Source: Astropecten irregularis (lineage: Eukaryota > Echinodermata > Asteroidea > Paxillosida > Astropectinidae). Taken from it: a stretch of 64,000 nucleotides of DNA. The translations under genes and the position numbers were made by a program. The stretch spans positions 12,189,662-12,253,661 of the forward strand of contig OZ020252.1 in NCBI GenBank assembly GCA_963971285.1. The letters run 5' to 3'. The notes under the pieces were generated by a model. The model made no database searches. It was not told the DNA's origin and saw nothing but the letters and a program-made list of their open reading frames with translations. Positions 10,401-63,262 of the stretch are shown in pieces. Positions within the stretch are counted from its first letter, which is position 1. Every line of letters begins with the position of its first letter.

Positions 10401-13400
10401 CTCTAGATGGAATACTTTGCCAGTGAAATATTCCCCACAGAAGTGTAGTTGGGGTCTATGAGCAAACACTTAACTGTAAAGCACATTACTACATTTGCAT
10501 AGACTGACATAAGCTGCGTACGGACCTAAATTTAGCTTGGACGATGGTTAAATTTCAAATGGGTAAATTTTCCTGCAGTTCGCACTTGGACTTTTTGAGT
10601 CGGGAAATTTAACCGAGACTATGGTTATAGTAAACAAGCTTGCAATCTAACGGCTCATAGGGGCGCTAAAATCAAGACCTCGATAGCCCGCGAAATACTA
10701 CTCCCTGCTTGAGGAAAATACACGTCACCAATCATTGAAAACAATACTAACCGAAACGTTTATAGTGCAACCAAAAAGTGTACAGAATGGTGTGTGGCAT
10801 CGCTTGCGTGTCATGACGGTCATGGTACGGTGACCGGATATTGGGCTTTTATACTGAGTGGCGTTTTCCCGAGTTGCGCGTTCACACTGGATTAACCGTC
10901 TCGATTGGTCAGAAGTTGGCGGTAAAAGTAACCACTGGACTTGGTAACTGAGAGGAAAGTTTTCTGGCTGTATGGACTGGACATAAATTGGTTAAGTTAC
11001 CATTGTCTCGGTGAGTTTTACCAAAAAAAGTCTTGTCCGAATGGGGCTATAGAGGAAAAAAGGCGGCGGGTCATACGAGATGCCATCGTTAGGAACAGAA
11101 CAAGGATAGACCCTTAAAAATGCCCACAAAGTAGTTGCTGTGTGAATTTGCAACCTGGCAATTGTATCTTGAGATGCCACCTGGTGTGATAGAGTTGTTG
11201 AAATACAGTGAAATCTCGTTAGTTCAAAGTCGCTTAATTCAAAACTTCTCTTATCTCGAAGACAGACCCCATTCCCGCCAGAAGAATGTAAACAAAAAAG
11301 GCTTTTATGTACAAAAATATCTCTGTAATTCGAAGTACCCACGTGCCTACAGCTTTTGTGAGGCTCATCAAAAAGAAATCACATCCAAAACACTTCTACA
11401 AGTGCCACAATGGACTTTCATTATGAGTTGCCAAACAAAGCCAACTTCCTCCTTTTACATACACGTGAGTTGAATCATTGACTAGTATACTGTGACTGTA
11501 CTGTACCTTTATGTATGTCGCACGGGGCCTGTGAAGCTACCGCCCTTTACACTGGTTACGCTTGCGATCGCAATGTCTGATTGTTGAATCAGATCACTGG
11601 CCGTGTTAGCACAACGGACATGTGACCATGGAAGCACAAATTGCTGCACAGTTCGCTGACCACGTGACGGCAAACGCACGTCGGGGATACACAGCGCGCT
11701 TAGTTTGCTGTTAGTTTACTGAAAGTTTACGATGACGTAAATTCACTTTTAGAACTCTCACTGATCAGAGTATTCCTTCAGAATCATCAAAGATGTAGAA
11801 AGCAACCAGAAATTGGTGATTAAGGTAAGACTTATCGAAGAAGTCGAAAATCACGGTGCAAAAAGAAAGGCAGACATCGTATAGGAATGGGGAATTCTGC
11901 AATCCACACTGTCTACCATCATGAAAGACAAGGAGAAGGTTAAGGAGCAGTTTGAAAACCAATCCATATCATCGACAAGAAAATGCATGAGAACGGCGGC
12001 GTATCCACAAGTTGAAGAAGCCCTCCTTAAATGGTTCAAGGCTGCCCGTGCCGAGAACATCCCAGTTTCCGGTCCGATTTTACAGGCCAAGGTCCGATCT
12101 CTTGCCCAGCTGTTGGGCCATCCCGACTTCGTGTGCAGCGACGGATGGCTGTCCCGATTCAAAGCTCGACATAATATCATCTTCCGTGCAATTGTCGGGG
12201 AAGGGGCTGCAGTCACCTCTGACATGATGAAGGATTGGATAGAAACCAGCCTATCAGAAGTCCTGTTGGCGTACGAACCGAGTGACATTTTCAATGCTGA
12301 TGAGACGGGAATTTTCTACCGCCTTCTTCCAGACCGATCCTCAACTTTTAAGGGGGAGACATGCAACGGGGGAAAGAGGAGTAAGGAGTGACTCACAGCT
12401 ATGGTCTGCGCCAACATGGACGGGGGCGAGAAGTTGCCCCTGCTTGTCATTGGCAAGTCAAAGAAGCCACAGTGTTTTGCAAACGTTAAGTCCCTGCCTA
12501 CAAAGTACGACGCCAACAAAACAGCTTGGATGACTTCCGACATCTTTGAGGCATGGGCTCGAAACGTAAACAAGAAATACAAAGTAAGAAAAGAAAAATC
12601 ACCATCATCATTGACAACTGCCCGGCCCATCCCCACATTACGGGTCTAAAGAAGGTCAAGCTGGTGTTCCTTCCTCCCAACACAACAGCCGAACTCCAAC
12701 CCATGGATCAGGGAGTCATCCAAAACCTACAGACGCACTATTGCCGCCAGCTCATCACGTTCCTTCTTGAAGCCGTGGAGAAGAAGACGGAGTACAACCC
12801 CACCATGTTGGATGCAAGGGTTCTTTTCAAGAAGTCCTGGAGAATGGTGAAGGAGACCACCATTGCCAACAGCTTCACGCACGCGGGATACAAGCACCAC
12901 ACTGCTGATGAGGACGAGGAACATGAAGACACCGAAACCGTCCCTGATGGGAACAACGCCGAAAGCAACGATGCAGACACAGATCTCATGGACAGACTGC
13001 GAGATGCTAGGGTGGATGTTCCATCAGAAATAACCATTGAGTCCTACACCAATGTTGATGCAGACTTGACGTGCACCATGGAGCTAACGGTCGAAGCCAT
13101 CGTAGATGCAGAGCAATCCTCCAATGCATCAGAAGTTAAAAAGATGATGACAACGAACAGTCAACCACCACTCGCCCAGCGGTCTCGATCTCCATTGCAG
13201 AGGCCCTGCAATTCGTAAACCAATTGCGTGAATTCGCAGAGCATGCAGAACTCCAACGCTGAGGGCATGTTCGATGCCCTTTGTGATATAGAGGAGTGTG
13301 TTGGCGACATCCAAAAAGGCAAAGCAAAGCAGAAACAAATCAAAGATTTCTTCAAGAAGTGAACATTAACCAAAATCCCGGCACAGCCAAAAACGGCCTT

Positions 13401-16400
13401 TTTCAAGGCCACATGGTACCACGTGAGATGTGTCCCTGTCGCGGTGCTGGAAATGCGCTGAGCTTTTTTGCTTTGTAGCGTAGCCAAATCTCACTCAAAA
13501 AGAACAAGAAATAACTAGACCTGTGTCTGTTGGTAACAAACACTGAGCTATTTCGTGTATGTTTTATAGAATATGAAAAATAAATATGAACACAATTGGG
13601 CCAATACAGAGAAATAGCCTATCAGCGGTGTCTTAATTGTCGTAAAAAACTATGAGCGTCTTCACTCTTCCATCAATACATGTATACATATACACACGGT
13701 CATGAGAAACACAGAAATGGCTGAGTCTGTATAAGCCACTGCGCATATTATGTATGGTTGTTTATATGGGCTGTGGAAACAGCAAAAGGATTGATTTTCT
13801 AGCTCGTCGTGTTCCGTTAACGTGTACACAAAACGCGTTTCGATCCTAACAGGATCTTTCTCAAAGGCGAACTGAATTACGGACAAGAACATGGGAGGGA
13901 ATAGAAACACAAAAGTATGGATGAGGGAGTCAGGACAATGGGAGGGGGGATTGGTCACACACAGAGGGGTCAGGTAGGCAAGATCAAAGTTGCCACACTA
14001 CAAATGGTGGGAAGAAGGGAGCTGGGGGATAGGGATTAACAATGAAAGTAATTAGAGGATTAGTGATCAAGATGGAGAGTACAAAAAGCAGGAGGGATTA
14101 GAGAGCACCTGTAGATGAATGAAAAGGAGACAACCAAGCATTAATATTAGTCATTTCCTTCCTGGAGATTAAGTCCATGAGGCTGAATGGTTCGTAATTT
14201 CTTAATCCAAACTTTCTCCCTGCTCAGCCGGACCAAATCCCTTCGGTGGCCAAGTGATTCAATGCCCTGCAAGATCATGTCAGAAATTGTGTGATTAGGG
14301 AGATTGAAGTGGAAACCCACTGGGGTGTCAAGTTTCTGAGTTTTGACTGTAGATCTGTGACCATAGAAACGTTTCTTAAGGGTATTTTTCGTTTCACCGA
14401 CATACTGAATGTTGCACACCCTGCAAGAGATGAGATGAATGACATTAGATGTAGTGCAGGTAATATTCCCTTTGGTCTTATGGGTGGAGCCATTGCCTGT
14501 GAAAGAATCAGATTCATGGATATGGTGCTGGCAGACTACGCATCTTGAGTTACATTTGAATGTGCCATGCTGGATAGGGGGAGAGACATTATTAGTGGTT
14601 GGGACCTCAGCCCTGACAATCAAGTCGCGGAGGTTGCGGGGACGTCTGTAGGCCAAGATGGGCTTTCCTGGGATAGCCCTGAGGAGACGGTCTGAGGTGT
14701 GAAGAATGTGATGGTTATCATTAGTGATTCTGCGTAATGGGGGAAGAGAGGGATGGAAAGTAGTCACTAGAGCAACGCTGTTATTAGTACAAGCATCATC
14801 GCTGGGGGCTTTCTCTTGGAGAACTGCCGATCTGGGATGAGCTCTCTCAATGGCACTCCGCACCTTGCGAGAGCTGTGGCCTCTTGCAACTAAGTGTTTC
14901 TTCAGTTCCTGAGTGTGTTTGGAGAAATCAGAATCATTAGAACAGATTCGTCTGAGTCTGAGGGCCTGACTATATGCTATACCAGTCTTGCAATGCTTGG
15001 GGTGGCAGCTGGTGGCATGGAGGTACTGGTGGGTATCTGTGGGCTTAGAATACAGGTCAGTGATTAGTGTGTCCTCTTCCTTGCGGATGGTGACATCAAG
15101 GAAATGGGCCTCATGGTGGGAGACTTCTGCTGTGAATTTGATGTGGTTAATGAAAGAACCTAAGCTAACCTAAGCTAAGTTTATTACTTGTATTGAAAAA
15201 TAAGATTTGTCGTTCATGAGATATAAAGAAAAGGTAAAAAAAATTGAATAATTCATATAAAATCACACGATGACGTTATCAACACGTGACTGCAATTTTT
15301 GTCTATAACACGTCCCCATATACTTGCATACCAAGTTTGATTTGAATCGGACTTGCAGTTCCGGAGATAAAGAGCCCTGAAATTTGCACTTTTATGATGA
15401 CGTCATGGTGCACGTGATGACGTCACGATGACGTACATATGCGGGACACTATTCAGGGTGGTGGTCTAACTATGTGCCAAGTATGAAGTTGATCAAAATC
15501 GGCATAAGGGTAGAAGTGACTTGTAGTGGTAAAAGAAAAAACTAGACCTGTGTTTGTTGACAAACACTGAGCTGTTTCGTGTATGTTTTATAAATAATAT
15601 GAAAAATAAACATGAACGCAATTGGCCCAGTACAGAAAAAAGTAAATCAGTGGTGTCTTCATTGCCGTTAACAACTATCAGGAGCGTCGTCAGTTGTCCA
15701 TCAATACACACATAATATACTGATACATGTACATGTATACACGTGGCAATACACAAGTCTACTATAGGCCAGCGTGCATAGTATGTATGGTTGTGCTTAT
15801 GGGCAGTGGAAACAGCAAAATGATTCATTTTCTAGCTCGTCGTGCTCCATTCACGTGTACAAAATTGTCCCACTACTTCAGATAACCATATCAGCGGTCC
15901 AAAAAGTTCCAAAGCCCGTGTTTTGTGTTTTGTTTGACTCTAAATGGCCAAATTAATTATCTAAAAAAATCAATAAAAAATCAGCCGATGACATCATCAT
16001 GATGTCACTTCACATTAGGGATACTAATACCATTTCCTACCTATCCACCGAGTTTCATTATGATCAGATATTCGCTTATATGTGTTTCTGGGAAAAATGG
16101 CTAAATTAAATATTCAAAAATCAATTAAAAATCAGCCGATGACGTCATCGTGACGTCACTTCACATTATGGATACTAGTACCATTCCCTACCTACCCACC
16201 AAGTTTCATTACGATCGGATATTCGCTTATGTGTGTTTCTGGGAAAAAATGGCAAAATTAAATATTCCAAAATCAATAAAAAATCAGCCGATGATGTCAT
16301 TGTGACGTCATTTCACATTTACGATACTAGTACCATTCCCTACCTACCCACCAAGTTTCATCACCATCGGATATTCCCTTATATGTGAATCTGAAAATCG

Positions 16401-19400
16401 GCTTTTTGATGACGTCATCATGACGTCACACCTTTTTGGTAAATTGTGGCATATGCCTATAACCTAACAAACATTTGACCGAAAGAATTTCGAAATTACG
16501 ATTTGTCGTTCAGGAGATATAAAGAAAAGGTCCAAAAATTGAATAATTCGTATAAAATCACACGATGACGTCATCGACACGTGACTGCAATTTTTGTCTA
16601 TAGCACGTGCCCATATACTTGCATACCAAGTTTGAGTTGCATCGGACTTGCCGTTCCGGAGATAAAGAGCCCTAAAATTTGCACCTTTATGATGACGTAA
16701 TTGTGCACGTGATGACGTCACGATGACGTACATAAGCGGGACACTATTTGGGGTGGTGGTCTAACTATGTGCCAAGTATGAAGTTGATCGGAATTGGCAT
16801 AATGGTAGAAGTGACTTGTAGAAAATCCCTGTGTTATGTCTATGGGAAAAAAGTGGAAAAAAAATAAAATAAAAAGGAAACTAGACCTGTGTTTGTTGTA
16901 ACAAACACTGAGCTGTTTCGCGTATATTTTATAAAATATGAAAAATAAACATGTACACCGATAGCCCAGTGCAGAGAAATAGCCCATCAGTACTCAGTAG
17001 TGTCAAGATTAATAGTCGTATTAAAACAACTAGTATCAGGAGCGTCGTCACTCGTCAATAAATACATGTATACACTATAGGCCTACAGATACATAATACA
17101 CACGGCCATGAGATACACAGAAATGGCAGAGTTTACTGTAGGCCAGCGCGCATAGTATGTATGGTTGTGCATATGGGCGGTGGAAACAGTAAAATGATAG
17201 ATTTTGTAGCTCGTCGTGCACCATTCACGTGTACACAATTGGCCGACTACTATGGATAGCCATATCAGCGGTCCAAACATTTCAAAGGCCCGTGTTTTGG
17301 TGTTATGTGTGACTCTAAATGGCCAAATTAATTATTACAAAAATCAATAATAAATCAGCCGATTATGTCACCATGACGTCATTTCACATTTAGGATATTA
17401 GTACCATTCCCTACCTATCCACCAAGTTTCATGACTATCAGATATTTGCTTATATGTGTTTCTGGGAAAAAATGGCAAAATTAATTATTCAAAAATCAAT
17501 AAAAAATCAGTCGATGACGTCATCGTGACGTCATTTTACATTTGCAATACTAGTATCATTACCTACCTACCCACCAAGTTTCATCACCATCGGATATTCC
17601 CTTATATGTTAATCTGAAAATCGGCTTTTTGATGACGTCATCATGACGTCACAACTTATTGGTATTTTGTGCCTATAGCCTAACAAACATTTTGCAGAAA
17701 GAATTTCGAAAATACCATTTGTCGTTCATGAGATATAAAGAAAAGGTCAAAAAATTGAATAATTCTTATAAAATCACATGATGACGTCATCAACACGTGA
17801 CTGCAATTTTTGTCTATAACACGTCCCCATATACTTACATACCAAGTTTGAGTTGCATCGGACTTGCCGTTCCGGAGATAAAGAGCCCTAAAATTTGCAC
17901 TTTTATGATGACGTAATTGTGCATGTGATGACGTCACGATGACGTACATACGCGGGACACTATTCGGGGTGGTGGTCTAACTATGTGCCAAGTATGAAGT
18001 TGATCGGAATTGGCATAATGGTAGAAGTGACTTGTAGAAAATCCCTGTGTTATGTCTATGGGAAAAAAGTGGAAAAAGAAAAATAAAAACTAGAAATTGT
18101 GTCTGTTGAAAACAGAACACAAGGCTTTTCCGTTTTATAGAAAAATCAACATAACCTTATACACACAAAGACATTTGATTAAGATCTTATGTTTTATACT
18201 TTTGAAGTATGCACCTTAAATCATACACTCACGTGACTTATTCATATTTCTGTCACAAAGAAAGACCTTGCCTAACATTGACTTTTGGCGAAAGAATCAT
18301 GATCATAGCCCTTACAACTTTTAAATCAGAAGCTACTTCCTGTTTGACCGGAAGTAGAGGTCGTAGAGGTCAAGCAATGTGTCACAATGAAAGACCTTGC
18401 CTAACATTGACTTTTGGTGAAAGAATCATGATCAAAGCTCTTACCACTTTTAAATGAAGAAATACTTCCTGTTTGCCCTGTACAAGTCCATGGGCTATAG
18501 CGTGAAAAATATTTTTAAAAATCATAAAAAATAAAATAATGACGCTGTCTTGACGTAACTTCACAATTACAATCCCGAACCTCCAATTCACCAATGTACC
18601 AATTTTCAAGGCGATCAGCCGTTCCTACTATGTGTTATAAAAATCGCATTTTTTATGACGTCATGAGGACGTCACCGATTTTGTGTCTGTGCAGTGTTCA
18701 TCTATGTTGTATGCTGAAGAATTATCAAAAAAAAATTCTAAGATATCTTGTTTCGTTTACAAGATATCGTTAAAATAACTTTAATGACCCAAAATTTCAA
18801 TAAATCATAAAAAATCAAGGAATGACATCATGATGACGTCATTGCAATTTTTCGATATAACACTTCCCGACTTAGATACATACCAAGTTTCAACTCAATC
18901 GGACTTAGGGTTCGTTCATAATTGATGTCTGAAGTTTGCCCCTTTAAGACACTGTCACGTGACACCTGATGACGTCATGATGACGAAAAGTTTCGGCATA
19001 CATTGACGCTATAGGGACTTTGTTTTGACCAAGTTTGGTTAAGATCAGCTGTTTAAAAATGGCCAAAGTGGGGTGCAGAATGCCCCTGTGCTTTGTCTAT
19101 AGGAATTCCAAACGACAAGAAGAAGAAGAAGAAGAAGAAGAAGAAGAAGAAGAAAAAACTAGAGATTGTGTCTGTTGAAAACAGAACACAAGGCTTTTCC
19201 GGTTCCGCTTTTATTGAAAAAAATTGTCATAACCACATACACACAAAGACAGTTGATTATGATCTTATGTTTTATACCTTTGAAGTGTGCACCTTTAATC
19301 AAAAACTCACGTGAATTGGTCATATTGTGTCACAAAGAAAGACCTTGCCTAACATTGACTTTTGACGAAAGAATCATGATCCTAGCTCTTACCACTTTTA

Positions 19401-22400
19401 AATGAGGAGCTACTTCCTGATTGACCGGAAGTAGACGTCACAGAGGTCAAGCAATGTGTCACAAATAAAAGACCCTGCCTAACATTGTCTATTGGTGAAA
19501 GAATCATGATCATAGCTCTTACCACTTTTAAATGAGGAGCCACTTCCTGTTTGACCGAAAGTAGAGGTCACAGAGGTCAAGTAATGTTTCACAATGAAAG
19601 ACCTTGCCTAACATTGTCTATTGGTGAGATACTCATGATCATAGCTCTTACCACTTTTAAATGAGGAGCTACTTCCTGTTTGACCGGAAGTAGAGGTCAC
19701 AGAGGTCAAGTAATGTTTCACAATGAAAGACCTTGCCTAACATTGTCTATTGGTGAGATACTCATGATCATAGCTCTTACCACTTTTAAATGAGGAGCTA
19801 CTTCCTGTTTGACCGGAAGTAGAGGTCACAGAGGTCAAGTAATGTGTCACAAATGAAAGACCTTGCCTAACATGGACTTTGGGTAAAAGAATCATGATCA
19901 TAGCTCTTACCACTTTTAAATGAGGAGCTACTTCCGGTTTGACCGGAAGTAGAGATCAGAAAGGTCAAGCAATGTGTCACAAAGAAAGACCTTGCCTAAC
20001 ATTGTTATTTGGTGAAAGAATCATGATCCTAGCTCTTACCACTTTTAAATGAGGAGCTACTTCCTGTTTGACATGAAGTAGAGGTCACAGAGGTCAAGCA
20101 ATGTGTCACAAATGGAAGACCTTGCCTAGCGTTGTCTATTGGTGAAAGAATCATGATCATAGCTCTTACCACTTTTAAATGAAGAGCTACTTCCTGTTTG
20201 ACCGGAAGTAGAGGTCACAGAGGTCAAGCAATGTGTCACAAATGAAAGACCTTGCCTAACATTGTCTATTGAAGAAAGAATCAAGATTATAGCTCTTACC
20301 ACTTTTAAATGAGGAGCTACTTCCTGTTTGACCGGAAGTAGAGGTCACAGAGGTCAAGCAATGTGTCACAAAAGAAAGACCTTGGCTTACATTGTCTATT
20401 GGTGAAAGAATCATGATCATAGCTCTTACCACTTTTAAATGAGGAGCTACTTCCTGTTTGACCGGAAGTAGAGGTCACAGAGGTCAAGCAATGTGTCACA
20501 AAGAAAGACCCTGCCTAACAATCACTATTGGTGAAAGAATGAAGTTAATATCTCAATCCGTTGATTTTTTGTTGATTTTTGAAGATTTTGATTATTAAAT
20601 TTGAATTGCTTGTCACATGACATCTGATGACGTCACAATGACGAAAAGTTTCGGGAGACAACTACCCTATATGGACTTCCTTCAGACCAAGTTTGGTTAA
20701 AATCGGCAATTTAAAAGTAGCCAAAGTGCCATCCAGAAAAAGTCTATGGTAACTCAAACGACAAGAAGAAGAAGAAGAAGAAACTAGAGTTTATGGCTGT
20801 TGAAAACAGCACATATGGCTTTTCCGCATACAATAATTATTATAAATTAATATTATAAAATGTTATACAAATAACTAGAAATGGATCCCTCATATGGACA
20901 AATCATGATCCTAGCTCACATACACAGGTCAATTAATGTGTCACAAAGAAAGACCGTGCCTAATCATCTATGGCCTAATATTCACTTTTGGTGAAAGAAT
21001 CAACTTACTATCTCAAACCCTTGTTTGATTTTTGAAGAATTTGATTATTAAATTCAAATCGCTTGTAATTTGACACCTGATGACGTCATGATGACCCTAT
21101 AAGGACATACTTCAGACCATGTTAAAATCGGCTGTTAAAATCTACGATTAAGTCTGTGGATCATTGCAATTGTTTGCATGCAATATAAATCATGCTCTCA
21201 AAATCCTTTTTTCGAAAAACATTACGTCAACTCACAAACATTGTGTCAACTCGCAAACATTGCTTCAACTCGCAAACAATACGTCGACAACTCGGAAACA
21301 TTGCGTCAACTAGCAAACATTACGTCAACTCGCAAACATTGCGTTAACTCGCAAACATTACGTCAACACGCAAACATTTCATCAACTCGCAAACATTACA
21401 TCAACTCGCAAACTTTGTGTCAACTCGCAAACATTACGTCAACTCGCAAACATTACGTCAACTCGCAAACATTACGTCAACTTGCAAACATTACGTCAAC
21501 TCGCAAACATTACGTCAACTTGCAAACATTACGTCAACTCGCAAACATTACGTCAACTGGCAAACATTACGTCAACTCGCAAACATTACGTCAACTGGCA
21601 AACCTTACGTCAACTCGCAAACATTTTGTGAATAATTCTGAAAAGTCAACACTCAACAGACATATGGATTCGACAATGAACATGTAAGTTTTACATACTG
21701 TAAACAATGTTTTAAACATGTTTTGGGAAATTGAGTCAATCGAGCATCACATCGTATGTTTTACTATGATCATTATTTTCATGTCAATCGGGTAGCGTGG
21801 GTAAGATTGAAAAATTTATAAAAGATTATAGGTGATGAAGTTGTCATGACTTCATTATTAATCGCCAACCTCTATTTCCCAAACCTACTAATTGTGTTAT
21901 TACAATTGTTTGAAAATGATATAAAAAAGACGTACGTGCTTTGTCTATGAGGAAAAATACAGTTTTGAGTCAACGGTCAATCGGACATCACGTCCCGGCC
22001 CAAGGCCCAGTGCGTAAGCCACGCCATCGGGCCGCCGGCGGCTCAGCAGCGGCGCCCATCCACCGACCGTGGTCTGCCGGTGCATGGTGGTTGCCACTAT
22101 GAAACGGCCGTGTAAATACCACCGCGTACACAAACAATTGTCGTCTAGCCTAGGTCGGGCCGATGGGGGACCGACACTGACTGTATTTTGCCTATAAAAA
22201 GGCCTTCTGAATATAATATTTATACAAAATTACATCAAGAACATGAAATCACTCTGATGACACTTTAGTCTAGGGGAAATGGCGTGATATAATTCAATTT
22301 GTTCATGTGTAAAACATATCATTATTGCCACGTACAAAAAAAACAAATTATGGATCATTGCACTTTTCCATACAACTCTTCCCAAGTATTAACTTGTACA

Positions 22401-25400
22401 TGTATAGCTGATATTAACGCGACCCATAGAATGACGTACAATACGGCAACCTACATCGATAGCATTTCGATATTTGGTGCTGGTATTTAACGATAAATGA
22501 AAAGTCTTACATGAAAATGTCTATGGGAAGATTATAAACGAAGTTTTGATCGAGTCACGCAATCCGCGGACATTATTATGAATGCCATACACACAGTGCA
22601 GTGAAATACGTATACGTACAGTGCAGTATGTACATGTATGGGGAGAGTTGAGTCATTCGAGCATCATATGTTTTGTACACGACCATATTGTCACGTAATC
22701 TGTGTACAAAGTTAACGGGCTGTGAGAAATATTAAAAAATTCATATAAAATCAAGATATGACGTCATGATGTCGAAAAGTTTCGGGAGACAACTACCCTA
22801 TATGGACTTCCTTCAGACCAAGTTTGGATAAAATCGGCTGTTTAAAAGTGACCAAAGTGGGGTCTAGAATGCCCCCTTGCTTTGTCTATGGGAATTTTGG
22901 CGACAAGAAGAGGAAGAGGAAGAAGAGGCAGAAAAAAAAAAAAAAAACAGAACAGAAATAAAGGCTTTTCGCTTGCGCGAAAAAGCCAAAAAAAAATCAG
23001 AACAAAAACAATACCTTTTCCGTTGAACACGGAAAAGCCAAAAAAAAAATCAGAACAAAAACAATACCTTTTCCATTGAACATGGAAAAGCCAAAAAAGG
23101 AAAAAATAAAAAAACAAATAAGAAAAACAAAAGCTGTTCCGCTGCATGCCAAACAGCTTAAAATAACACAAAAAATAACAAAAACAAAAGCTGTTCCGCT
23201 GCATGCGAAACAGCTAAAAATGCGAACATACAACATATGAAAATAACCGAAATTCACTTTTTCCATTAAAATCCAGTATTTGCTTTTATCCTGTCTAATT
23301 GCCTGAAATACATGTACATGTACTATAGCACAAGTGCCACACTTGCATTCCAAAACTGCAATCTTTGTCAACTTTGTCTCCAAATCAGAGTCATATCTGT
23401 GGGTTCCCAGACGTAACTTGGCATTTGTTACGTCATACCAAGTTACCAACTAATGAAGCACAAGAAACTTCAGCCCATCTGTGCACATTCCAGCCATCAT
23501 CTTGACATAATTGTGTCACATTAATTACAGATTTTTACATGTATTTTAATCAAATGTAATAGATGAAAAATTGAATTTTATTTCATCGAAATTGGTGGTG
23601 GGTGAGTGGTTCAAACAAATTTGAAAAAAAAGTCGAAATTTAAAAACATTGAAAATTTTAGTGGCCCCTTAGTACATAATTTTTTTAATTTTGCCTGTGA
23701 AAAAGATTAAGGCTGTCAATTTGTGGATATAAAGCACACCCTGACCATTGGAAACCTAAAAACAATTAGTATTGATGTAGGCACCTGCATTTGCGGGAGT
23801 GGATAGAGTGGTTGCGTTGGCTAGACAACGATTTTACTGGCCTAAGATGACTCAGTGCATCAGGTGTGTGGCTCGTAAGACAACACAGAGAGTAGCTGCA
23901 CCCTTGGAAAACATTACCACCAGTTGTCTCCTTGAGTTGTCTCCTTGTTATGTATTCGGATTTACATTCTCGGTCCCTGCTTATGTTTATGTTGGTTGTT
24001 CTTTATAAATCTATGTTTTTGTAATAGTACTGTTACTCTTGTATTGCCTGCTTGTTTGTTGGTCAAATAAATAATAATAATAATGATGTGTGACAAAACT
24101 CCCCATGGTGTATCGCAAAAGCAGGACTCAAAGCGTGTTAAGAATCTCAAGCTTAACTTGGAAGATGCTTATCGCCTAGCATTGAAGAAATCTGCCAAAT
24201 CGGCAGCCGGCTGTGGCTGTAGGCCATGGAGTAGAGACACGATGTTGCCATCAGTGCAGACTCCCAAGGACCCAGACTCTCCCAGGGAACATACCATGCA
24301 CCCAGTTTTGAAAGTTATGGTAAGCACATTACAAGACACTCTACAACAATGTGTCTTCGATGCGAGTTTTATTCTTAAAAAACTCTCTAAAAAAACTCTC
24401 TTCAAAGTAGGTTAGAATGAAAAGTGTCAAAGCATTAGAAAACCATTCTATTGACATGCTGGCTAAGAGGAAAATACATGAGGCGTATGCACCAGGGTGC
24501 ATTATGGGTAGATCGGTAGAGTGTGCTGTGTTAAACTCTTAGCAATTTATCTGACAATATAAGGGAAATATGCAAATGTAGTAATTTGCTCTACAGACAA
24601 TGTATGAGTGACGTAAACCTTGACAATTCATAGAGTATGCTGACTAGAGACTGAGATGTAGCAGAAATGGGTATACTCACTACACACTGGATGTGAAGAT
24701 GGGCTGCATTCCTTGATATACTCTCAGGAATGGCCGGCAACCTATATCAAATTCAAGTTGACATAAATATCATTAGCTTTAAAATTAACAAAAAATAGAG
24801 CATTATAAACTAGGTTAGAATAAAAAAAAAAATTATTTTGAAGCAAGTTGATTTAACGGTAACCTAATTTTGGGGTACTGAGAAATTGTGTAATCTGAGG
24901 TTAAAGGGGGTAATTCTGGCAAAATACTCCCCAAATTGGCAAAAAATTCTAAAGCTTACAATTTTTGCAAAAAAAAACAAACCCCAAAGTACTTTATAAA
25001 CAGAATCGGGTAACCTACCAATTTTGCCTAATTTGGTTGTTATCAAGCTTAAAGGCGTCAATTTGGAAAAATAATCCCAAAACTGGCTCAAAGATCCAAA
25101 TGTAAGACTTAAAATTTTAAATGGAATCTGGTAACATACAAAGGTTGAAGGGGTCATTGTAGCAAAATATATGCTAAAAATTCCCAATATTTCTGCATCT
25201 CACCTCCATTAATATCATAGTTAGGCACTCCATGTATGATCACATGATGCAAGAATAGTGGTTCACTGTTGACTTGAATTGACTTTGTCAGAAGACCAGT
25301 GAAGTAATTGACATAACGATACTGTGATGGTTGCATAGCTGATTCAGTCTTAGCCTCCAGAAAACGCTTCATTGCATACCTGTCCACTGCTGTCTCTGAG

Positions 25401-39940: not shown

Positions 39941-40671
39941 CCAAATCTTGTAAATTTGTATTTCGCAAATCATTTTGTATTCGCAGAATGATTTTGTGCT
40001 ATTCAAAAAATGAATTTGTGTCCTCGTAATAATTTCGTATTCGCAAAGTAATGTGTCCTCCAAAGCATTCCATGTTCTCCGATGTCATCATGATGTCATC
40101 GTATGTTCAATGACAATACAGTGTTCAATTAGGGGCTCCATAAACCCTGCAACTAAATGGGTTAATCTTTAGTTTTCTAAAATGATATATGGTCACTTTT
40201 AAACAGTATGTCTTAAGCAAACAAAATAAGTGATGTGTATTAATTTGAGAAATATTCTATATCATATATGCAGAAAAGTCTTGTGTTCTGTTTTCAACAG
40301 ACAAAACCTCTAGATTTTTATTAAAATTACAAAGCATTTGTAATTTGACACCTGATGATGTCATGATAACGTCATTGCAATTTATCAAAAGAACAATTCC
40401 CAACTTAGATACATACATGTACGTAGAGTTTGTTCATAAATGATGTGTGAAGTTTGCCCCTTTAAGGCAATGTAACATGACACATTGTGACGTCATGATG
40501 ACGTCACTGCAATTTATCAAACCCTTCCCAACTAAGTACATACCAAGTTTCAACCCAGGGCTCGTAATAGTACTAGCCCGACGGCGTACAATGTCTAGCA
40601 AAAACCACTCTGGGCTAGCTACTAGCTAGACTCACTTCCTTGGTTGCCTGTTGGGCTAGTTAAAAAAAAAC

Positions 40672-40746
40672 ATGTGGATCGGTTTGCAGAAACACCATGT
40701 TAGAATCAATGATTCTTAAATGGTGTTTCCGCAAATCGATCCACAT
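40672..40746. repeat. Short inverted repeat, 27-bp arms
   Basis: ATGTGGATCGGTTTGC and GCAAATCGATCCACAT form the outer arms, and AACACCAT/ATGGTGTT the inner. It lies inside decayed F2 sequence. Confidence 0.7.
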
Positions 40747-41044
40747 ACTTTTGTTTGGACCAAGTTCGGTTAAGATCAAATGTTTAGAAGTGACCAAAGT
40801 GGCATGTAGAATGTCCCTGTGCAAAGTCTATGGGAATTCTGGCGACAAGAGGAGGAGAGAAGAAAAAAAAGACAAAACAAAAATAAAGACTTTTCGCTTA
40901 AAATATGCGGAAAAGCCAACTAGACCAACTAGACACAATTGGCCAAGCACAGAGAAAAACAAATGTAAACAACTATCAGAAGCGTGGTCACACGTCCATC
41001 AATGCATGTATACAGGTACATACACACGGCCATTAGAAACACAG

Positions 41045-43437: not shown

Positions 43438-44460
43438 AGGTGTTCGGGTTCAAGCCAACACCTATTGTTATTGTTCGAGTTTTTTTTTCCTTTTTTTATT
43501 TTCCTTCTTCCCAAACTTGTCAGCAGGACTTCTATATGACAGTTACAAGATATTGACTTGAAACTTGGTGGGAACTTGGTCGTGATGCCAAGTTGTGCCT
43601 AGAAGATTGACGTCATGATGACGTCATCGGGTATCAAATTACGCGCGTTTTTAGGAAAAACTTTGATGCTTTATAACTTCAGAACCACATAACCTATGAT
43701 TTTGATATTGACATATGTTACTCAACGCGTGAATGTCAACAATTAATATATTCAGTGTTGTGTACAAATGACCTTCACTTCCGGTGTTACCGGAAGTTGA
43801 AGTTTGACTCAAAATAACTCGAAAACAGAAGGATTTGGGCACAAAAAACTTCATGGGTAAAAGATAGAGAAGGTCTTGATCTTTCAGAAAATTATATAAA
43901 CAATGATGTCATAGGGGCTGTATAGCGCCCTCTACGGTGGATTAAATATATACAGTGATTACGTTATCCGAAAGTAAACAACGGATTTCCGCCAAATTTG
44001 GTGAGTGTGAAGCACTAATGCACCTTGACATATGTGTGAAGTTTGAAATCTGTGACGTCATTCAACCGGAAGTTATGCGTTTTTAAAGGAAACATGATGT
44101 TATTATTCAAAAACTGTTTATTCGGTAATTACATGACGTACATTGATGAAAATTGCACAATATTTACATCATACGCATTGAATAACCTCTCTTAACTTTC
44201 AGTTCTTTGTGATGAACTAACCGGAAGTTATAGTCAACGCAATATTGCATATATTTAAAGGTGACACATATGAACAGTATGTACAACATGTGTGTACAAC
44301 GTACAGTGTCATTCACATTACACAAATTACATTATCTATGAGGGACGATTGGTCACATACGTTCAAACATACATGTAATTTTATGTTCACATTAACAGTT
44401 CCACCTTGAAAAAAGACCCCGAACACCTAGTGGTTGTTCACACAACCACAATGTCTAGTT
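43438..44460 (+). mobile_element. Helentron-like F1 element, stand-alone
   Basis: 5' hairpin begins AGGTGTTCGG; its right arm has lost a base here. After a T-rich tract and a body with TGACGTCATGATGACGTCA, the 3' end has CCGAACACCT (complement of the 5' arm), hairpin GTGGTTGT/ACAACCAC, then CTAG and TT. No coding capacity. Nearly identical in layout to 59,852-60,876. Confidence 0.75.
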
Positions 44461-50819: not shown

Positions 50820-51250
50820 ACAATCACAAAAACAACATGTACATGTACATTGTACAAGAAATACTACTATTACAACTACAATACGACAATCACAAAAACA
50901 ACATGTACAAGAAATACTACTAATACAACTACAATATGACAATCACAAAAACAACATGTACAAGAAATACTACTAATACAACTACAATATGACAATCACA
51001 AAAACAACATGTACAAGAAATACTACTAATACAACTACAATATGACAATCACAAAAACAACATGTACAAGAAATACTACTAATACAACTACAATATGACA
51101 ATCACAAAAACAACATGTACAAGAAATACTACTAATACAACTACAATATGACAATCACAAAAACAAAATGTACAAGAAATACTACTAATACAACTACAAT
51201 ATGACAATCACAAAAACAAAATGTACAAGAAATACTACTATTACAACTAC
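50820..51250. repeat. 53-bp minisatellite, about 8 units
   Basis: Unit runs from ACAATCACAAAAACAACATG to ACAACTACAATATG with very few differences between copies, which suggests recent expansion. Confidence 0.9.
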
Positions 51251-51799
51251 TATATATACGGAAAAGCCTTCCAATGCTCTTTTTTCCAAATAGACATACA
51301 GTGTACATGTAGATGTCTATATTATTTTTCGTTTTAATAATATCAGGGAAGTTTTGATAATGTAAAGGTTATTAATTACAGCACAGGCGCATCATGTATT
51401 TATATCGAGATGGTGCTCCCTGTTCAATGACCTACATGTACTCTGGCAGGTTGTGCATGCACAGTGAGTCTGTGACTTGGACTGAGGACTTCAATTATTA
51501 CATCCAAGTCGTTTGTCTTCACATGGCTATGTTCATAAATATTAAGATAAAAATATAAATCTTGAATGTGCATTACATGATCCATACATGGCCAACCAAG
51601 ATGCAAGGAAACAGTTTGTGTTGCTTTTTGTCATCAATGGAATGGTCACTATGCAATGTGCTTTTTATATATCCACAGCGGAATGTAGCTCACCCCCCAC
51701 TGAGTTTAAGGTCAGTGAAACAAAATACAGCCAAGGTTTAGTGTGCAATTTTGATATCTGCATTTGGATTCACATGCCAATTTGTATCACAAAGCATTG

Positions 51800-59353: not shown

Positions 59354-59851
59354 TAAAAGGCAGAATCGGTATCGGTGCATGAACGGGGAGCCGGGAAGAG
59401 GTTTGATATTTTAATCGTCTTTAGATTGTTGATTATCAAACAAGGTCATATTTGTATGTAGATGACGGTGATTAGAGCTCCAATCAGGTTATATACTGAG
59501 GTACGTGTACATGTATATGTCAAACCATGTACCAAATCAAAGGGTTTGCTGATGCATAACTCCAAATTTAAATATACAATGCTGTTTCCATAGCACCATA
59601 AAGCGTCCTTTATTCCGTACAATGGGCACTTAGGCAGTGCATACATGCGTGCATCAGCTGCCTATAGGAGTGTACTGTATGTGATGTACTGTCACAATTG
59701 AACAGCAGCTGCCACAGAAGGAAAGTATCAGGTCAATGTTAACTAATAATTACCGCAGGGCATTTGACATTGTACATTGTTGCGAAAAAGCTATACTGTT
59801 TGTCAAGGTTTTTTTTTTAGCTGTTTCGCATGCAGCGGAACAGCTTTTGTT

Positions 59852-59891
59852 AGGTGTTCGGGTTCAAGCCGAACACCTATTGTTATTGTTC

Positions 59892-59925
<34 letters not shown>

Positions 59926-60876
59926 CTCCTTCCACCCAAACTTGTCAGCAGGACTTCTTGGTGACAGGTACAAGATATTGAGTTGAAACTTAGTGGGAAC
60001 TTTGGTCATGATGTCAAGTTGTATTTAGAAGATTGACGTCATGATGACGTCATCGGGTATCAAATTACACGCGTTTTTAGGAAAAACTTTGGTGCTTTAT
60101 AACTTGAGAACCACATGACCTACGATTTTGATATTGACATATGTTACTCACCACATGAATGTGAACAATTAATATATTCAATGTTGTGTACAAATGACCT
60201 TCACTTCCGGTGTTACCGGAAGTTGAACTTTGACTCAAAATAACTCAAAATTGGAAAGGTTTTGGCCACATACAATTGCTTGGCAAAAAGATAGAGTAGG
60301 TCTTAGGCTTTCAGAAAATATAAACGATAACGTCATACGGGCTGTATAGCGCCCTCTACGGTGGATTAAAGATATACAGTGATTACGTAATCCAAAAGTA
60401 AAAAAACAGATTTCCGCCAAATTTGGTGAGTGTGAAGCACTAGTGCACCTTGACATGTTTGCGAAGTTTGAAATCAGTGACGTCATTTAACCGGAAGTTA
60501 TGCGTTTTTAAAGGGAAAATGATGTAATTATTCAAATACTGTTTACTCTTTAAGTACATGACGTACATCAGTGAAAATTGCAAAATATCTACAGCGTACG
60601 CATTGAATAATTTCTGCAAATTTTCAGTTGTTTGTGATTAACTAACCGGAAGTTATCGTCCAGGTAAGTATTACATATTTAAAGGTGACACCATTTTCTA
60701 TGTATACGCTATTTGTCAGTGTATGAATATGGCAATCAGCATGATCAGTATCACGCAATATATTTACGCAGTATTTCAATAATTATGCCATTGATTACAT
60801 ACAATCCAACAAACAGTTCCACTACGAAATGAAACCCCGAACACCTAGTGGTTGTTCCCACAACCACAATGTCTAG
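59852..60876 (+). mobile_element. Helentron-like F1 element
   Basis: 5' hairpin AGGTGTTCGG/CCGAACACCT, T-tract, body closely similar to 43,438-44,460, 3' CCGAACACCT, hairpin GTGGTTGT/ACAACCAC, CTAG. Confidence 0.8.
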
Positions 60877-60891
60877 TTTTTTTTATTTTTT

Positions 60892-61908
60892 GGCTTTTCC
60901 GTGTTCAACGGAAAAGGTATTGTTTTTGTTATTGTTTTTGTTCTTTTTTTTTTTTTTTACTTTCTTCTTCTTCTTGTCGTCGTTTTTTTCTAGGTGGCAC
61001 TTTGGCTACTTTTAAAGTGCCGATTTTGACCAAACTTGGTCAAAACAAAGTCCCTGTAGGGTAGTTGTATGCACAACATTTACGTCATCATGACGTCATC
61101 AGGTGTCACGTGACAGTGTCTTAAAGGGGCAAATTTCAGACATCATTTATGAACTAACCCTAAGTCCGATTGAGTTGAAACTTGGTATGTATCTAAGTCG
61201 GGAAGTGTTATATCGAAAAATTGCAATGACGTCATCATGACATCATTCCCTGATTTTTTATGATTTATTGAAATTTTGGGTCTTAAAGTTCTTATAACGA
61301 TATCTAGTAAACGAAATCAGGTGTCATGTGACAACCTATTTGAATTTAATAATAAAAATCTTTAAACAACAAAAAATCAACCGTTTGAGATATTAAGTTC
61401 ATTCTTTCACCAAAAGTGATTGCTAGGCAAGGTCTTTCTTTGAGACATTTTGTTTGACCTCAGTGACCTCTACTTCCGGTCAAACAGGAAGTAGCTCCTC
61501 ATTTAAAAGTGATAAGAGCTAGGATCATGATTCTTTCACCAAATATCAATGTAAGGCTAGGTCTTTCTTTGTGAAACATTGTTTGACCTCTGTGACCTCT
61601 ACTTCCGGTCAAACCGGAAGTTGCTCCTCATTTAAAAGTGGAAAGAGCTACAATCATGATTCTTTCACTCAATATCAATGTTAGGCAAGATCTTTCTTTG
61701 TGACACATAACTTGACCTCTGTGACCTCTACTTCCGGTCAAACAGGAAGTAGCTTGTCATTTAAAAGTTGTAAAAGCTACAATTAGGATTCTTTCGCCAA
61801 AAGTCAATGTTATTGAAGGTCTTTCCAATGACACAATCTGATTTACAAGCAATTTATATCATATGCGGAAAAGCCTTATGTGCTGTTTCAAACAGCCATA
61901 AACTCTAG
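60892..61908 (+). mobile_element. Helentron-like F2 element, both ends present
   Basis: 5' hairpin GGCTTTTCCG/CGGAAAAGG, (TTC)n then TTGTCG, TGACGTCA words, three units of the 129-bp repeat (61,430-61,820), 3' CGGAAAAGCC, hairpin with CTGTTTCAAACAG core, CTAG. This copy defines the full F2 structure. Confidence 0.8.
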
Positions 61909-62169
61909 TTTTTCTTTCTTCTTCTTTTTTTTCCCACTGCCCATAGACTTTGCACACGTTTTATTCTACGGGACTTTTTTGCCATTAAACTTTTATACAC
62001 TTTATTCAAAGTTGGTATATCATAGTACATACAGCATAGATGTGCCCGCGTGAATTACGTCATGATGACGTCATCAGGTGTCATGTGACAAGCTATTTGA
62101 ATTTAATAATAAAAATCTTAAAAAGTCAATAAAAAATCAACCGTTTGAGATATTAAGTTCATTCTTTCA

Positions 62170-62850
62170 CCAAATATCAATGTTAGGCTAGGTCTTTCTT
62201 TATGACACATTGCTTGACCTCTGTGACCTCTACTTCCTGTCAAACAGGAAGTAGCTCCTCATTTAAAAGTGGCAAGAGCTAGGATCATGATTCTTTCACT
62301 AAATATCCATGTTAGGCAAGGTCTTTCTTTGAGACATTTTGTTTGACCTCAGTGACCTCTACTTCCGGTCAAACAGGAAGTAGCTCCTCATTTAAAAGTG
62401 GTAAGAGCTAGGATCATGATTCTTTCACCAAAAGTGATTGTTAGGTAAGGTCTTTCTTTGTGACACATTGATTGACCTGTGTGACCTCTACTTCCGGTCA
62501 AACAGGAAGTAGCTCCTCATTTAAAAGTGGCAAGAGCTAGGATCATGATTCTTTCACCAAAAGTGATTGTTAGGTAGGTCTTTCTTTGTGACACATTGAT
62601 TGACCTGTGTGACCTCTACTTCCGGTCAAACAGGAAGTAGCTCCTCATTTAAAAGTGGCAAGAGCTAGGATCATGATTCTTTCACTAAATATCCATGTTA
62701 GGCAAGGTCTTTCTTTGTGACATTTTGTTTGACCTCAGTAAACTCTACTTCCGGTCAAACAGGAAGTAGCTCCTCATTTAAAAGTGGTAAGAGCTAGGAT
62801 CATAATTCTTTCAATGTTAGGCAAGGTCTTTCTTTGTGACACATACATAT
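62170..62850. repeat. 129-bp minisatellite, about 5 units
   Basis: Same unit as 19,328-20,515 in the opposite orientation, with TGACCTCTGTGACCT and CTTCCGGTCAAACAGGAAGT. Confidence 0.8.
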
Positions 62851-63262
62851 TTAGATCTAATGTTGCATGGATTCATAAATTAATTTAAAAACATGGAGCG
62901 GAAAAGCTCTATGCTCTGTTGCACTTGCAGACAGACATAGAATCTCTAGTTTCTATTGTACATGTAGATGAAACGAAAGGTACCCATGTTTGTGTCCATC
63001 CTTACAATTTTATAAATGAAGCACAAGTGGTAATCATTCATAAAGAACATTTGTTCAGAAGGCCTTTTTTGCATTGGAGGGAGTAAACTGTGGGGTTTTG
63101 TATACCAGGTTTTAATAAGATTCATATTTAAAATTGTTTGTTAGGCTAATTCTTAATTAAACTGAAAACCCTCCGGTCCCGATACATTCTTAAACCATTT
63201 GATGTGTTTCCTTTAAGGAGAATACTGAAGCATGTGGCAAAACAGGCAGGCTGGCCAACACT

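Follow-up and report, generated by a model that had tools for sequence, protein, structure and literature searches.

Helentrons, HINEs and DINE-1 elements are described, in the sections of Thomas et al. 2014 drawn on here (PMC4067079), as having a palindromic 5' subterminal repeat, an inverted copy of it about 40 nt before the 3' end and a 3' stem-loop, as inserting in T-rich DNA (T-rich or T-T targets being what the Helentron literature at hand reports), and as including non-autonomous copies and, in some copies, tandem repeats. Nested Helitrons with multiple termini are already known from two other systems, to go by the available parts of the respective reports: the Helitron2 family FoHeli of Fusarium oxysporum has repeated short 5' termini (31-85 nt), whose proposed origin is self-insertion and then transposition of the segment between the outer 5' end and the first 3' end (PMC5148889), and in maize 28.7% of helAs have multiple terminal structures, for which nesting has been proposed (PMC3288121). 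Here we describe a 64,000-nucleotide window of the genome of Astropecten irregularis that contains a stack of elements with Helentron-like ends, in which six 3' ends lie on one side and five 5' hairpins are packed together on the other, in mirrored family order. We consider it likely that the locus has grown inward by nested insertion of Helentron-like (Helitron2-type) rolling-circle elements.

The window, the whole stretch that was analysed, is C16:12189662-12253661, C16 being a 21.5-Mb contig in a genome of 475.7 Mb and 168 contigs. Hairpins and 3' ends were located by a motif scan using edit distance, and the main stack was read on the minus strand. Hairpin counts are those of the motif scanner, apart from one extra hairpin each at the first stack on C17 and at C25:4.39M that came from a general hairpin finder, whose settings let most F2 hairpins escape. 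The motif for the F2c hairpin was derived from the window's own innermost hairpin, so that its match there is exact. The parts of the main stack, with their ends assigned to families F2 (including a subfamily F2c) and F3, are as follows.

23189..23215, minus strand: F3 5' hairpin, outermost of the array, exact match to the F3 hairpin
23132..23158, minus strand: second F3 5' hairpin, one difference from the F3 hairpin
23067..23092, minus strand: F2 5' hairpin, variant CCATG..AATGG with paired changes in both arms (CCG..CGG to CCA..TGG)
23014..23039, minus strand: F2 5' hairpin, exact match
22963..22987, minus strand: F2c 5' hairpin, innermost, exact match
20784..22962, minus strand: layer 6, innermost, body and 3' end, F2c; CTAG at 20784, 19-bp tandem repeat at 21217-21625
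19159..20783, minus strand: layer 5, body and 3' end, F2; a 130-bp repeat is present about nine times
18090..19158, minus strand: layer 4, body and 3' end, F2
16881..18089, minus strand: layer 3, body and 3' end, F3
15542..16880, minus strand: layer 2, body and 3' end, F3
13515..15541, minus strand: layer 1, outermost, body and 3' end, F3; without a 5' hairpin of its own

An earlier note on this DNA, made from the letters alone, had proposed this mirrored arrangement together with 26-39 nt spacing and the absence of one outer F3 hairpin, and the motif scan bears it out. The five palindromic hairpins occupy 253 bp (window 22963-23215, minus strand) with gaps of 30, 39, 27 and 26 nt, and their families run F3 F3 F2 F2 F2c from the outside in; the six Helitron-type 3' ends on the minus strand (13515, 15542, 16881, 18090, 19159 and 20784) run F3 F3 F3 F2 F2 F2c, the same family order plus one extra F3. 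The count of five hairpins to six 3' ends reflects the outermost layer, which lacks its own F3 hairpin, and no 5' hairpin was found by the motif scan at any of the five internal junctions. The innermost layer retains both its own hairpin, GGCTTTTTCGCGCAAGCGAAAAGCC, and its own F2c 3' end. Where the note had assigned the three innermost layers to a single type, the F2 group stands and the single type does not, as at least two subfamilies (F2 and F2c) are present.

The ends themselves combine features of Helentrons and of canonical Helitrons. Each 3' end consists of a subterminal repeat and CTAG followed by T, so that all six carry the canonical Helitron 3' CTRR form, and stems of at least 6 bp lie upstream of the CTAG at five of the six, the sixth (13515) being recognised by motif alone. 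The left arms of the F1, F2 and F3 hairpins are the reverse complement of the 3' subterminal repeats at 10 of 10 positions, and these repeats begin 38-43 nt ahead of the terminus, which is the Helentron/HINE arrangement of a palindromic 5' subterminal inverted repeat with an inverted copy about 38-60 bp before the 3' end. The hairpins start with AGCT or GGCT after T runs and, to judge from the sequence, lack the 5' TC of canonical Helitrons. Two features are unlike Helentrons and HINEs, namely the CTAG ends and the stacking of elements several deep at the 5' T-tract; the accessible parts of PMC4067079 mention clusters and tandem arrays, and no such stacks. The FoHeli composites, as presented in the part of PMC5148889 drawn on here, have several 5' termini and a single 3' terminus, whereas in A. 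irregularis multi-layer stacks keep several 3' ends, as many as 11 hairpins occur at one locus and the family order recurs. In maize, 99 of 100 sampled internal 3' ends are without an intact CTAG, according to the excerpt of PMC3288121, whereas the five internal ends of the window keep theirs.

What follows a 3' end was recorded for 39 of them, from 9 of 13 stretches scanned, and the share of tandem junctions rests on these 39. Another element's body follows directly, without a hairpin, in 26 of 39 cases (five of them match by construction, the reference body starts having come from the window, leaving 21), a hairpin follows within 20 nt in five, unrelated DNA in seven, and one lies at the edge. 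Genome-wide, exact hairpin-less junctions of an F2 3' end with an F2 body start number 121, with none in the control. An F3 3' end running into an F2 body was met in 0 of 6 cases in the same sample, in keeping with F2 lying inside F3. All seven 3' ends that abut unrelated flank have T as the next letter; insertion at T-T without target duplication may apply here. Tandem Helitron arrays are mentioned for other species in the parts of PMC4067079 and PMC5148889 at hand, and could in principle suggest that the stack is a rolling-circle concatemer or a circular copy recombined into a resident element. Such an origin, as the earlier note had argued, would put a 5' hairpin at each body junction; with none at the five junctions of the window and five after the 39 sampled 3' ends, the concatemer is already largely refuted at this locus and we regard this whole class of explanation as very improbable. 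Homologous recombination of circles was ruled out, as it too would leave a hairpin at each junction.

Inward growth would instead proceed by entry of a new element at a T-T step of the T-rich tract between the resident's 5' hairpin and its body. The resident would be split, its hairpin going to one side and its body and 3' end to the other, and this separation at each insertion would leave junctions without hairpins and a mirrored order. We infer that each step is a transposition that favours this T-tract and depends in trans on large Rep-coding elements; the chemistry of all steps is likewise conjectural. The missing outer hairpin of the window could reflect movement of a composite past a 3' end, which would give an excess of 3' ends, or the loss of one hairpin.

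Relatives were sought by a DNA search with the hairpin array, in which 40 of the 2319 first-look candidates were scored and 52 matches obtained, and the eleven best-scoring loci besides the window were examined, partly or wholly. Six further stacks are closed. C8:26.84M has hairpins F3 F2 F2 F2 and 3' ends F2 F2 F2 F3, and C12:19.12M has hairpins F3 F2 F2 F2c and 3' ends F2c F2 F2 F3, both 4:4 mirrored and followed by unrelated DNA. The second stack on C17 is mirrored 3:3 (hairpins F1 F2 F2, 3' ends F2 F2 F1), its innermost element having an F2c-type 3' end and a hairpin nearer F2. At C25:8.99M four hairpins (F3 F2 F2 F2c) face three 3' ends (F2c F2 F3), at the first C17 stack five hairpins (one via the general finder) face three 3' ends, all of the F2 group, and at C27:3.476M 11 hairpins face five 3' ends. 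The prediction that hairpin order mirrors 3'-end order elsewhere is borne out at family level in all seven closed stacks (the window and these six, leaving aside a second stack in the window), trivially so in the first C17 stack, where all layers are F2 and the F2/F2c subtypes do not mirror. At C23:7.18M and C27:3.456M the stacks are not closed within the sequence examined, and at C1:9.90M, C25:4.39M, C9:8.32M and C10:8.67M the motif scan found no 3' end within 7.5 kb. The sequence is repetitive and T-rich, which might invite misassembly, but closed stacks with different layers and different flanks lie on five other contigs (C8, C12, C17, C25 and C27), and an assembly artefact is hardly credible.

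Layer ancestry was compared over the last 300 nt among sampled copies. In the window, layer 4 differs from a C8 layer by 2.0% and from the adjacent layer 5 by 10.7%; layer 5 itself differs from a C25 layer by 6.0%, and the F3 layers are each nearest to a copy elsewhere (12-14%) and 17-21% from one another. The F2 and F3 layers of the window are closest to sampled relatives at other loci, which speaks against local duplication. Over whole bodies, the three F2 layers at C8 are 2.3-5.1% apart, against 3.4-6.4% from copies at two other loci, and in a tree with weak support they form no clade. Much of the body of layer 6 is 91% identical to a C23 layer.

The order of families recurs across the genome. 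The 27-nt F3 hairpin with at most one mismatch has 620 matches (reversed control, none), and among 100 that were listed at least 19, counted by eye, fall in eight same-strand groups. At 67 exact places an F2 hairpin comes 12-42 nt after an F3 hairpin (controls, none), and the reverse order occurs at four, a ratio that is approximate. Among 66 of the 67 pairs and 100 listed of the 121 junctions, at least 21 combinations of an F3-F2 pair with a junction lie within 40 kb, 16 of them with the junction downstream on the same strand; of the remaining listed ones, two are on opposite strands and three are upstream on the same strand, these three involving one C9 pair and lying within 40 kb downstream of another pair. 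Taken at about 40 nt each, 620 tracts come to roughly 0.005% of the genome, a share so small that tens of landings there would be unexpected under uniform insertion of a few thousand copies.

A Rep-coding partner is present in the same genome. With 150 of 154 candidates scored, the Helitron Rep domain PF14214 gave 149 matches. Single open frames of 3000-3714 aa hold about 94 of these, counted by eye, which hints at recent activity. Among the matches listed, one lies 9.6-26.7 kb downstream of 16 of the 67 F3-F2 pairs (two in one cluster), always antisense; a further pair has a sense match at 29 kb, and none was found upstream within 30 kb. The elements here are accordingly accompanied, as Helentrons and HINEs are, by an autonomous Rep-coding partner, the linkage being one of position only. 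A minus-orientation protein is reported for one element of D. ananassae in the part of PMC4067079 (Thomas et al. 2014) at hand. Clusters of 7, 5 and 6 hairpins lie upstream of Rep elements at C1:9.90M, C25:4.39M and C9:8.32M, which suggests that each forms the 5' end of a large element whose Rep gene lies antisense; the idea that these three loci are truncated was dropped, as the Rep search indicates their continuation into such elements. At C9:8311137, a 164-aa antisense frame cut by the sequence end matches PF03372 in a laxer scan (E=0.001, 19.3 bits against a cut-off of 24.5) and has no Pfam match at the default threshold and no PDB match; it is a putative, not a proven, member of the endonuclease/exonuclease/phosphatase family, as Helentrons would have.

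Hairpin clusters that exist as units elsewhere, which the earlier note held would speak against stacking, are found in part. Hairpins 3-7 at C27:3.476M equal the first five at C27:3.456M in order, 20 kb apart (compared by eye); a composite may have moved and then grown differently inside, or the run may reflect local segmental duplication. Together with the 11:5 and 5:3 counts at C27:3.476M and the first C17 stack and the Rep-linked clusters, this run would fit a reading in which the hairpin cluster is simply a mobile 5' end, multi-hairpin elements transposing as units and the cluster keeping no record of local insertions. We regard that as unlikely, since the 4:4 and 3:3 mirrored loci are bordered by unrelated DNA, layers are nearest to different loci, and the C27 pair may be a segmental duplication; movement of this kind contributes but leaves the stacked bodies unexplained. 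Clusters do seem also to be copied as units, and nested insertion may be joined by occasional renewed movement of multi-hairpin composites, starting at an outer hairpin and stopping at an inner 3' end, which would yield a hairpin excess. On the Fusarium model, the composite would move from the outermost 5' end to the first 3' end, taking several hairpins and one body.

Several observations weigh against inward growth by repeated insertion. Hairpin and 3'-end counts are equal in three of the seven closed stacks (C8, C12 and the second on C17), or four of eight with the tentative second stack of the window, and at C10:8.67M six hairpins are accompanied by neither a 3' end within 7.5 kb nor a listed Rep match within 30 kb. 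The patterns behind the 67:4 ratio are unequal, with 20 and 19 fixed bases and F2c hairpins omitted from the reverse one, and since a cluster may be duplicated whole, several of the 67 places could go back to one insertion. The innermost layer 6, the sole F2c of the stack, has its nearest sampled 3' end 24.5% away. Two adjacent F2 layers at C8 differ by 0.7% across their final 300 nt, no other pair of F2 ends compared being closer, and by 2.3% over the body, below the distance of either to the compared copies at other loci (at least 3.4%), so that local duplication or conversion is possible there, to judge from these distances. That pair, and the tandem character of the hairpin units (periods 53 and 57 by Tandem Repeats Finder, TRF), would suit an origin from one F2 nested in one F3, followed by slippage of hairpin units and unequal crossing-over of bodies. 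Against this, the bodies in the window are unequal in length (1069 to 2179 nt) and have different internal repeats, the F2 and F3 layers are nearer to other loci than to each other, and matching counts at several loci would be coincidence; we find this even less probable than a purely mobile cluster. The expected age order also failed to appear consistently. Private substitutions rise outward in the F3 layers of the window (2, 3 and 7 of 290 sites), as younger inner copies would have it, but run the opposite way, from inner to outer, in the C8 F2 layers (35, 8 and 10 of 1045) and in the two compared F2 layers of the window (5 and 3 of 288), and divergence of layers from consensus is also mixed. 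With few copies, thin sampling and subfamilies confounding the comparison, dating is not used as support.

The claim of growth by repeated T-tract insertion accordingly stands where it concerns mirrored order at other loci, hairpin-less junctions and layers akin to other loci, and gives way where clusters are also copied as units and ages are out of order. A wider version, which we put forward tentatively and hold to be somewhat less probable than not, is that related Helentrons land preferentially in the 5' T-tract next to the hairpin, and that their families form a hierarchy that runs almost one way; the array would then be an ordered, inward-growing insertion record, and composites carrying arrays would move again and keep growing, giving arrays with one common hairpin run that differ further in.

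The window holds further elements, beginning with a second stack on the plus strand and an open reading frame inside layer 1 of the main stack.

59819..59845, plus strand: F3 5' hairpin of the second stack, exact match
59852..60876, plus strand: F1 element, hairpin 59852-59878, 3' end 60876
60892..61908, plus strand: F2 element, hairpin 60892-60917, F2c-type 3' end 61908
61909..62949, plus strand: rest and 3' end of the outer element, by eye (the scanner gave no call), tentatively linked to the F3 hairpin
14147..15169, minus strand: open reading frame of 340 aa inside layer 1, weak GIY-YIG match (PF01541, E=0.00025, 21.7 bits, under the cut-off of 22.6)

The second stack (59819-62949) can tentatively be read as a bracket structure, ( ( ) ( ) ); the 3' subterminal repeat of its last part agrees by eye with the F3 hairpin arm at 11 of 12 positions but lies about equally near F2. 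The frame in layer 1 is presumably a fragment of a Penelope-like retroelement. A Tc5/pogo-like transposase in two frames (HTH_Tnp_Tc5 and DDE_1 matches) adjoins the main stack at 11885-13218. A lone F1 element with hairpin and 3' end lies at 43438-44458, with no adjoining hairpin in the scan, and a remnant at 40260-40917 has an F2-like 3' end at 40313 (plus strand) and an F2-like hairpin at 40917 (minus strand). A 53-bp tandem repeat (7.6 copies, 98% matches) at 50851-51268 terminates at an F2-like 3' subterminal repeat and is possibly a satellite carried by a related element. Viral-contig pattern scans gave no match. Elsewhere in the genome, a 640-aa open frame starts about 5 kb downstream of the six-hairpin cluster at C10:8668192-8677507, and Rep matches are found in runs along one strand, with seven in 176 kb at C11:16209717-16385913, four in 74 kb at C20:6831088-6905268 and three at about 6.65-kb spacing at C1:9972735-9986581, suggesting tandem arrays or local duplication.

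Literature searches, covering titles and abstract starts with most subscription journals outside their scope, met no description of multi-layer mirrored Helentron stacks. As far as these searches show, what is new here is the depth, the preserved mirrored stacks, the CTAG kept at internal ends of the stack in the window, a family order that runs nearly one way, and the recurrence in one genome. With a repeated, ordered landing site inside an element's own 5' end, targeting can be tested by sequence, and the order of insertion provides a relative clock that is independent of divergence. The stacks also offer many natural cases for asking which of several available 5' and 3' ends the transposase uses.

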